Source: a virus
Reading direction: 5' to 3' (one strand)
DNA: 37,920 bases
IMG/VR virus record: IMGVR_UViG_3300017674_000012
Location: 1 to 37,920 of that record
The notes below the pieces were generated by a model. It had not been told where the DNA came from and made no database searches. It saw only the letters and a program-made list of their open reading frames with translations. Of the stretch, positions 22,701 through 25,273 are shown one piece after another (positions within the stretch are counted from its first letter, which is position 1; each line of letters starts with the position of its first letter). The position numbers were made by a program, and so were the translations under genes.

Positions 22701-23975
22701 ATGAAATTAGGTCTTTCTTTACCCAAATCGTTATTACCGGATTTCTTGCGAGCCGACAAGAAGGCAATTGCCAAGCTTACCACCGAACTGGAGACACTCA
22801 AAAAACAATCCTCCAGTGTAAAGAATCCAAAACGCGTAAGCCTCAACCTGAGCCAGCGCAGAAGCTACATGGCCACCATGCAGCAGGATGAATTAAAAGC
22901 TGCAGTATTGATTGCACGCGATCCGCTGCGTCCACGCAGATCGATGCTGCTGGCCATGTACGATGAGGTGTGGGAGAATGATGGTCACTTGATTGGCGAG
23001 TCCCGCAAAGCCATCCTCAAAGTGGTCGGCTCTCCATTCGGTCTTTTCAAACTGGGCACCCAAGAGATTGATGAGCAAGCCACCCGCTTGTTTCAAAAGA
23101 AGTGGTTTGAAGATTACAGAAAGTATTTTCAGGAAGCCAATTTCTTCGGCCACTCACTAGTGCAGTTTGCTGAGTGGGTGAAGAGCGAGGAGAAAGGCAT
23201 GGAGTGGGAAGTAAAAAGAGTAGAGCTCATCCCGCGCGAGCACGTTCGTCCGGAGGAAGGATTATTTGTTTTAGATGTAAGCGATGAAGTCGGCATTCCT
23301 TTCCGCGAAGAGAAGTTTAAAAAAGGTTTAATGCTCATTGAGATGGGCGACAGCAAATACCTCGGACTGCTTTGTGTAGCTACCAAAGAATTCATCTGGA
23401 AAAACTACAGTCGAAGTGACTGGAGCCGGCACAGCGAAAAATTTGGAATGCCAATGGTCGCTATCAAAGCGGCTACCGATGATAAGACGGAGCTGGATAA
23501 GCTCGAACAAATGGCTCGCAATTTCGGCGAGAACCTTTGGATGATCCTCGACCCGGAAGATGAGATCGAGTTGAAAGAGCCCACCTTCAAAGATTCTTAT
23601 AACATATATAAAGAGCTGGCTGCGTTTGCGAATTCAGAAATCTCAAAGGCCATCTCCGGAGCCACCGGCACCAGCGATGAGAAATCATTTGTCGGAGCTG
23701 CAAAAGTTCATGAAGATATCTTGAATGAATTTGTTGAAGCGAACAAACGCGCTGAGACTTATCATATCAACGAAGAGCTGCTTCCATTCCTGCGCGAAAA
23801 TGGATATCCAATTGAAGGGTTAGAATTCAGATACATGAGTTACCAGGATAATGAAGACCCGGAGAATGACGATGCTGAGTCTACCGATGGTAAAAATGCA
23901 AATCCCAAAAAGAAAGGTCAAGGAGGTGGCCTCATAAAAAAGTCGCAACAGGCTCGGTATCGCTATCGTTTTTAA
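22701..23975 (+). CDS. Portal protein (DUF935-type, Mu gp29 counterpart)
   Basis: This 424-residue protein shows the DUF935 portal features: a helical N-terminus, VSLNLSQRRSYMATMQQDEL, ARDPLRPRRSMLLAMYDEVW, and a C-terminal clip/stem region with NSEISKAISGATGTSDEKSFVGAAKVHEDIL. The zero-frame product ends with a short basic tail, QARYRYRF, after a Lys/Gly-rich linker (from about residue 395). At residues 412-414 the codons ATA AAA AAG contain the slippery heptamer that leads into the MuF frame, so some ribosomes would make a portal-MuF fusion. Confidence 0.85.
   Translation: MKLGLSLPKSLLPDFLRADKKAIAKLTTELETLKKQSSSVKNPKRVSLNLSQRRSYMATMQQDELKAAVLIARDPLRPRRSMLLAMYDEVWENDGHLIGESRKAILKVVGSPFGLFKLGTQEIDEQATRLFQKKWFEDYRKYFQEANFFGHSLVQFAEWVKSEEKGMEWEVKRVELIPREHVRPEEGLFVLDVSDEVGIPFREEKFKKGLMLIEMGDSKYLGLLCVATKEFIWKNYSRSDWSRHSEKFGMPMVAIKAATDDKTELDKLEQMARNFGENLWMILDPEDEIELKEPTFKDSYNIYKELAAFANSEISKAISGATGTSDEKSFVGAAKVHEDILNEFVEANKRAETYHINEELLPFLRENGYPIEGLEFRYMSYQDNEDPENDDAESTDGKNANPKKKGQGGGLIKKSQQARYRYRF
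23936..23942 (+). other. Slippery heptamer A AAA AAG, predicted -1 frameshift into MuF
   Basis: The zero-frame codons ATA AAA AAG place the heptamer A AAA AAG exactly in phase for -1 slippage. An AGGAGG element lies 9 nt upstream, the SD-to-slip distance of the E. coli dnaX signal. The -1 frame is open for 111 codons to the MuF ATG at 24275 and then to 25271. No strong downstream stem is evident. This is the same heptamer as in the tail chaperone gene. Confidence 0.72.
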
Positions 23976-25273
23976 TCGATCAGCTTCACACCTGTTGTTT
24001 TCACGAACCGCATGCTGAAGGCGATTCTTTTAGTTTAGATAAGTACGTTCGAAAGGCTATCGAACGAATTTATAACAATCGCATTGCGCTGGGTCAACCT
24101 GATCCCGACTTAGTCCGGGAAACTTCTCGCATACTTTGGGAAGGTATTTTAAAGGGTTGGGAAAACAATCCGGACAAATTAGAGTTTGGCAGCCAAGAGC
24201 AAAGGCTATTAATACAGCTTCGTTTCAACACAGCCATTACAGCTATCTTCAAACACCATCAAAGCTCACTGGCTATGGCCCGCGAGCTGGTAGATGAAAA
24301 CGGTAAGCTCAGAAGCAAATCAGAATTCTTCAAAGCCGTGAAGGATAAAGTAGATAAAGACTACAACAAGAAATGGCTGGAGACTGAATACAATACTGCC
24401 GTTGCCTCCGCACAGCAAGCGCGCAAATGGATGAGCTACGTTCGCAAAGGTGGATCGATTACCTACGTTGCTGTAATGGATAAGCGCACGCGTATTGAGC
24501 ATGCTGGATGGAACGGAGTAACACTTCCGGTAACAGATGTCTTCTGGAAAAATCATTTCCCCCCTAATGGTTTTAATTGTCGCTGCACAACCAGGTGGGC
24601 AGGCACTGAAGCCGAAGATGTGCGGCCCACTACGTTTGAAGATATTCCGGAAGCCTTTCAAAACAATGTAGGGATGACCGGCAAAGCATTCACTGATGCC
24701 TTGCCTTACTTCACTACCGATGGAGCTTTCGCAAAAAGAGCCGGCGAGTTATTTGGCTTCAAGCCGGCTGTTGATCTTGCTAAGTTCGAAAACAACTTAC
24801 TGCTCTACGAAAGCTTGCTGAAGGAAACTGATTTCAAGGTAGAGTTCACCGACAATCTCTCCGGAGGATTTGTGTTTAGTCACGTTAAGAAAGCAAATGA
24901 TTACTCCGCAAACTTGAAAGCTGCAAAGCTGCTGGCCATCCGAGGCGATGCGGTTGTCATTCGACAAGTAATCAATCATCACGGAGCAATCAATCCGGAT
25001 ATTGAGTTGAATAGTCTACTCACAGAAATCAAGACCAATAAAACAGCGACAGCAAACGCCATTGATCAGGCATTGAAAGCTGCCGGTAAACAAGCCACAC
25101 AAGTAGTCCTCAATATTGAAAGCAATATCACTGGCGAGAAATTGAAAGAAGCCATCAAATATAGAATCACGCGCAGCACAAGCATTCAGAACTTGATTGT
25201 CATATACAAAGGCTCAATGTATGAATTTGACAGAGCCAAGATTTTGATGGGAGACTTTTGGTTTAAGGATTAA
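23942..25273 (+). CDS. MuF-like minor head protein with C-terminal CdiA-type nuclease domain, read by -1 frameshift
   Basis: The MuF domain's DKRTRIEHAGWNG segment and the PPNGFNCRC motif lie at 24479-24586 (residues 69-104 from the ATG at 24275). Upstream, 111 codons from 23942 read as protein (DSFSLDKYVRKAIERIYNNR, SRILWEGILKGWENN) with no ATG, GTG or TTG, so this part is likely reached only by frameshift from the portal. The fusion would have about 857 residues. The C-terminal region (about 200-315 from that ATG) has the KAAKLLA, NPDIELNSLLTEIKT and DQALKAAGKQATQVVLNI segments of the CdiA C-terminal tRNase (BECR-type) domain, with candidate active residues Glu251 and Lys253. MuF-toxin fusions are known in temperate phages; the portal fusion is inferred. 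Confidence 0.75.
   Translation, partial: VATGSVSLSFLIDQLHTCCFHEPHAEGDSFSLDKYVRKAIERIYNNRIALGQPDPDLVRETSRILWEGILKGWENNPDKLEFGSQEQRLLIQLRFNTAITAIFKHHQSSLAMARELVDENGKLRSKSEFFKAVKDKVDKDYNKKWLETEYNTAVASAQQARKWMSYVRKGGSITYVAVMDKRTRIEHAGWNGVTLPVTDVFWKNHFPPNGFNCRCTTRWAGTEAEDVRPTTFEDIPEAFQNNVGMTGKAFTDALPYFTTDGAFAKRAGELFGFKPAVDLAKFENNLLLYESLLKETDFKVEFTDNLSGGFVFSHVKKANDYSANLKAAKLLAIRGDAVVIRQVINHHGAINPDIELNSLLTEIKTNKTATANAIDQALKAAGKQATQVVLNIESNITGEKLKEAIKYRITRSTSIQNLIVIYKGSMYEFDRAKILMGDFWFKD

Follow-up and report, generated by a model that had tools for sequence, protein, structure and literature searches.

A predicted programmed −1 ribosomal frameshift joining portal and MuF genes in a Mu-like phage and its relatives

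The whole stretch of DNA analyzed here, a 37.9-kb viral record referred to below as the window, reads as a Mu-like transposable phage in which the portal gene and the downstream MuF gene lie in different frames and are predicted to be joined by a −1 frameshift. The portal gene (22701..23975, plus strand) encodes the frame-0 product, a Mu-type, gp29-like portal of 424 amino acids that matches Portal_Mu (PF06074, E=1.8e-51) and the phrog_113 portal family. The MuF part of the predicted fusion (23942..25273, plus strand) comprises 443 codons and a stop in the −1 frame, which remains open over 23894-25273 and is conserved ahead of its first ATG. It contains a Phage_Mu_F domain (PF04233, E=9e-14) at 24320..24592 (plus strand), corresponding to residues 127-217 of the 23942-25270 translation, followed at 24992..25210 (plus strand; residues 351-423) by CdiA_C (PF18451, E=9e-9, 35.8 bits, cut-off 26.6), a predicted toxin-like domain. 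All three Pfam matches exceed their gathering cut-offs. AlphaFold2 gave a poor model for this MuF part (mean predicted local distance difference test score of 52.8), and comparison of the C-terminal region with solved structures gave no match.

The slippery heptamer A AAA AAG (23936..23942, plus strand), which is conserved in homologues, lies within the overlap of the two open reading frames in the X XXY YYZ phase, with X at the third position of a portal codon and the portal stop 10 codons further on. Tandem slippage at this site would place V415 (GTC at 23942) directly after K414, giving a predicted fusion of 414 + 443 = 857 amino acids. The MuF frame has its first NTG codon at the ATG of 24275..24277 (plus strand), within the conserved MuF region, and the 111 codons from 23942 to 24274 therefore contain no ATG, GTG, or TTG and no standard start. 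This pre-ATG segment aligns as protein with the relatives L054, L056, and L134 and is identical to L054 at 50 of 102 residues. Its changes fall at codon positions 1, 2, and 3 in the numbers 42, 32, and 62 against L054, and 33, 22, and 68 between L056 and L134; this preponderance of third-position changes is comparative evidence that the segment is translated in the MuF frame. A preliminary description of this DNA had reported both the heptamer 10 codons before the portal stop and a coding MuF frame that has no normal start for 111 codons; coordinates and phase proved correct, and the coding status is upheld by conservation at the protein and codon-position levels.

Homologous loci were drawn from phages, genome contigs, and viral contigs. 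A single-protein scan with the window portal found no relatives, and the searches used smaller alignments, the 9-sequence alignment A1 being too diverse to scan with. Of the resulting 298 loci, 179 have a −1 MuF, 82 encode it together with the portal in one open reading frame, 15 have it in another frame, and 22 lack a usable MuF; clustering at 80% portal identity yields 157 clusters, of which 93 are −1, 53 are fused, and 11 belong to the remaining frames. In the overlap, 85 of the 89 testable −1 clusters contain an in-phase A6 or T6 run (X XXY YYZ), whereas 3.7 would be expected at the frequency of such in-phase runs within portal bodies (104 per 49,769 codons). Hexamers of this kind also occur in the other two phases, in 36 and 32 clusters, for the most part where a long A run spans several phases. 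Heptamer phase in homologues, which the preliminary description had singled out as a check, agrees with its reading: L054, L055, L056, L134, L135, and L136, whose portals are 47-64% identical to that of the window, each combine an in-phase A AAA AAG/A with a −1 MuF. The same combination is found in dozens of remote relatives. Conservation extends beyond protein constraint, and the arrangement recurs in many independent contigs and in isolate phages, among them Peternella_1, TCUEAP3, and BKO1-TP1. Programmed slippage at the portal end appears to be shared by a large family of Mu-like phages, most of them from Bacteroidota. The gene carrying PF04233 lies directly 3' of the portal in 59/59 −1 members, placing it in the MuF/SPP1 gp7 superfamily, and since the C-terminal domains of these members vary (CdiA_C in 18, Gln_amidase in 5, PBECR2 in 3), the predicted C-terminal cargo is of the polymorphic-toxin kind.

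The slip module is not a property of all Mu-like portals. In a 395-genome sample from the phylum of G001, 11 of 23 portal-MuF loci have the slip motif and 12 lack it; the latter are mainly top-scoring PF06074 matches whose MuF genes mostly begin at the portal stop or close to it, and the module therefore belongs to one portal lineage. As a separate observation, four loci with very remote portals (L336, L337, L339, and L347, scoring 13-17 bits against the portal profile) combine an A-run slip site with a −1 MuF, and three of the four have no start codon for 336-654 nt.

Elements resembling frameshift stimulators, of which the preliminary description said nothing, flank the heptamer on both sides. 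Upstream, a Shine-Dalgarno (SD)-like element, AAGGAGG (23920..23926, plus strand), ends 9 nt before it and would form an anti-SD duplex of −15.6 kcal/mol; a comparable element is absent from 37 of the 38 window gene starts tested. In Escherichia coli dnaX, an SD-like element lies ~10 nt upstream of the heptamer, and the window element shares this ~9-10 nt placement, a functional resemblance and not homology. Among 38 clusters with A-type sites, 9 have GGAGG exactly 9 nt upstream and 12 reach duplex energies lower than −8 kcal/mol, compared with 1.6% of background positions. Strong SD elements occur in 10 of 14 clusters with short runs (A6-A8) vs. 2 of 24 with longer runs (Fisher p=1e-4). The Gly-Gly encoded by GGAGG could account for part of its conservation, though probably not for all of it, because the exact spacing is kept in the remote loci L175 and L200. 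Downstream, an RNA structure is predicted at 23945..23998 (plus strand), with an outer stem pairing 23945-23952 with 23991-23998; its 60-nt fold reaches −16 kcal/mol (z = −4.0), and 1 of 200 shuffles was equally stable.

Three types of signal can be distinguished across the family. The window and its nearest kin carry the first, A6-A8 runs with GGAGG 9 nt upstream. The second consists of T TTT TTC with a covarying hairpin 5-6 nt downstream, the heptamer lying in most cases one codon before the portal stop. In this hairpin 98.8% of cells are paired and 23 are double-changed (22 sequences); neither value was reached in any of 500 shuffles, and pairing dropped to 29-57% in slid controls. The codon before the Phe-Phe pair ends in T in 80/80 T-type clusters (48 in −1, 32 fused) across eight different residues, compared with 19.7% T at third positions. 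The third type comprises A9-A11 runs, mostly without an SD-like element, in about two dozen relatives; transcriptional slippage is possible at these loci.

Relatives in which portal and MuF already share one frame bear directly on what is conserved. The slip motif is kept at the junction in 52 of 53 such clusters: 32 have an in-phase T TTT TTC/T followed by GC-rich hairpin-like sequence, 18 a run of A8 or longer, and 2 an in-phase A6 (L074, L075), leaving one (L068) without a motif. T TTT TTC is present in 31/31 clusters of the main fused clade. Since the MuF frame of fused loci is open without a slip, conservation of the motif is not a by-product of selecting shifted loci; slippage there would yield a shortened portal, the mirror image of the window. 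On the portal tree, the fused state requires 13 changes, 10 of them forced by starred branches (FastTree, a rough estimate). Together, motif retention and recurrent change suggest that what is conserved is a locus with two products, whichever the frame parity, as is the case for dnaX. The −1 stops of T-type fused loci are not unusually near (median 22 codons), and selection for early termination as such is therefore not supported in them; in A-run fused loci the stops are close, at 1-5 codons in 17/18. Porphyromonas phage013a (L008), whose annotation shows a single portal of 854 aa, has both T TTT TTC and a hairpin where portal and MuF meet, and a shorter portal is therefore predicted. The preliminary description had treated genetic fusion as the form of portal-MuF coupling known elsewhere; such fusions do exist, although they are not an alternative to recoding, as the fused loci keep the slip motif. 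It had also proposed a fixed low ratio of fusion to portal, which the comparison does not show: retention of the slip site in frame-0 fusions accords with an efficiency that is not very low, and parity reversal is better matched by moderate values. Parity reversal in dnaX has been discussed as feasible near 50% slip (PMC5009743).

A second in-phase A AAA AAG (13046-13040, minus strand) lies at the end of a gene (13588-13034) that immediately precedes the tape measure gene, and is followed after 6 nt by a hairpin (z=−4.5, 0/200 shuffles) and by a 65-residue open −1 stretch. This is probably the frameshift site of the tail assembly chaperone, and its presence in the same phage was counted in favor of frameshifting at the portal. 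Gene order around the latter is terminase, gp36-like, portal, MuF, and gpG-like, and a Mu transposase C-domain and an AAA protein are encoded at the far end of the window. A Peptidase_M15-domain protein at 559-1992, near the phage end, is a candidate endolysin-type enzyme.

The locus very probably uses a programmed −1 ribosomal frameshift to make both a 424-aa portal and an 857-aa portal-MuF-CdiA_C fusion, a reading that the preliminary description had reached and that phase, homologue conservation, pre-ATG coding, and stimulator-like elements strongly support. Ribosomes would pause at A AAA AAG, aided by AAGGAGG 9 nt upstream and by the downstream RNA structure, both tRNAs would re-pair one base back, and translation would proceed into MuF. 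Both products would then be made, and portal and fusion may co-assemble in one ring, which would position MuF and its C-terminal domain within the head, next to the portal, with slip efficiency setting how many of the 12 subunits bear MuF. A broader model, to which we give roughly even chances, holds that the portal ring is a programmed mosaic in which a ribosomal or, in some lineages, transcriptional slip of either parity sets the number of MuF-toxin arms among the 12 subunits, the slip in the window's lineage being driven by SD pairing in hosts with SD-free starts. The host is inferred to be one of the Bacteroidota from the SD-less gene starts of the window and from relatives. No description of a portal-MuF frameshift was found in the literature searched, from which subscription papers were mostly absent, in keeping with the earlier remark that recoding for this purpose was not known.

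Other accounts of the junction can be weighed against these data. Transcriptional slippage, in which an A is gained or lost during RNA synthesis and ordinary translation of the heterogeneous mRNAs follows, has precedent in Thermus dnaX (PMC5009743) and would suit the mostly SD-less A9-A11 relatives, but the run in the window is of six A only, and phase-specific conservation, the covarying T-type hairpin, and the 9-nt GGAGG are ribosomal features, which makes it unlikely here. An independent MuF start at a non-standard codon, or termination-reinitiation near the portal stop with the heptamer incidental, is quite improbable. MuF genes do have their own starts in the outgroups Mu, where portal and MuF overlap by 20 nt with an annotated ribosome-binding site, and Pseudomonas H70, where the two abut, as well as in the Bacteroidota relatives L002 and L003; an ATG stands at the junction in these cases, however, whereas the window lacks one over 111 codons, and homologues preserve the phase of the heptamer, those with fused genes included. 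That MuF is made solely from ATG 24275, leaving the upstream open frame unused, is very unlikely: the resulting 332-aa open reading frame would retain the Phage_Mu_F domain, but the preceding 111 codons are conserved as protein. An assembly error or pseudogene frameshift, conceivable for a record of the IMG/VR type, is refuted as a general account by the recurrence of the arrangement in independent contigs and isolates, and its probability for the window is negligible.

Several observations weigh against ribosomal frameshifting as set out above. Four of the 89 −1 clusters (L057, L080, L102, L138) have no A6/T6 heptamer, and L002 and L003 encode MuF as separate ATG-started genes, so fusion is not needed in every lineage. 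The spacer between heptamer and stem in the window is 2 nt, shorter than usual. The anti-SD of Bacteroidia ribosomes is reported to be sequestered, leaving SD sequences unrecognized (PMC9976891). In the same class, however, prfB uses an SD-dependent frameshift with a perfect SD-like stimulator, and its authors suggest that the pause allows the 16S tail to free itself (PMC8710568).

Portals are described as homo-oligomers, and a two-product portal locus conserved in many phages would mean mixed rings. These would offer a simple explanation of how a low-copy MuF is loaded at one special vertex and would give polymorphic toxins a delivery position. Gene calls would also be corrected, as current annotation of these loci starts MuF proteins at late ATGs or includes them in plain portals, and recurrent switching between fused and shifted states with the slip motif kept makes the question of product ratio testable. 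The window AAGGAGG would add a second example, alongside prfB, of recoding linked to an SD in a lineage poor in such elements.

Known systems share parts of this arrangement. The tail assembly chaperone G/GT is produced by a conserved −1 frameshift in tailed phages (Xu, Hendrix, and Duda, 2004, as summarized in PMC7911831), which likewise gives part of a morphogenesis-gene product a C-terminal extension; it concerns another gene pair, between the major tail and tape measure genes, whereas the present locus is that of portal and MuF. The same two parts are fused in Microbacterium phages of clusters EA/EB (PMC7302621), described as plain fusions and compared here by description only, and in Porphyromonas phage013a, annotated as a plain fusion despite its slip signal. 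Slippage is predicted in an SPP1-gp7-family (MuF-family) head gene of Paenibacillus phage Emery (PMC4168068), although within MuF and in a single phage. In MuF polymorphic toxins, MuF directly follows the portal and bears C-terminal toxin domains, as here, and SPP1 gp7 is a portal-binding protein present in 1-2 copies per capsid; these are separate proteins, with no frameshift mentioned (PMC5576092). The release factor 2 gene prfB of Flavobacterium johnsoniae also combines an SD-like stimulator at a recoding site with an SD-poor lineage, though its shift is +1 and autoregulatory and affects another gene (PMC8710568). A further parallel is bacterial dnaX (tau/gamma), which has the same A AAA AAG −1 heptamer, upstream SD-like element, and downstream stem-loop, and which, as portal-MuF loci may, occurs in either frame parity and uses transcriptional slippage in some species (PMC5009743); its products are unrelated proteins that serve the DNA polymerase clamp loader, whereas those predicted here would be parts of the virion.
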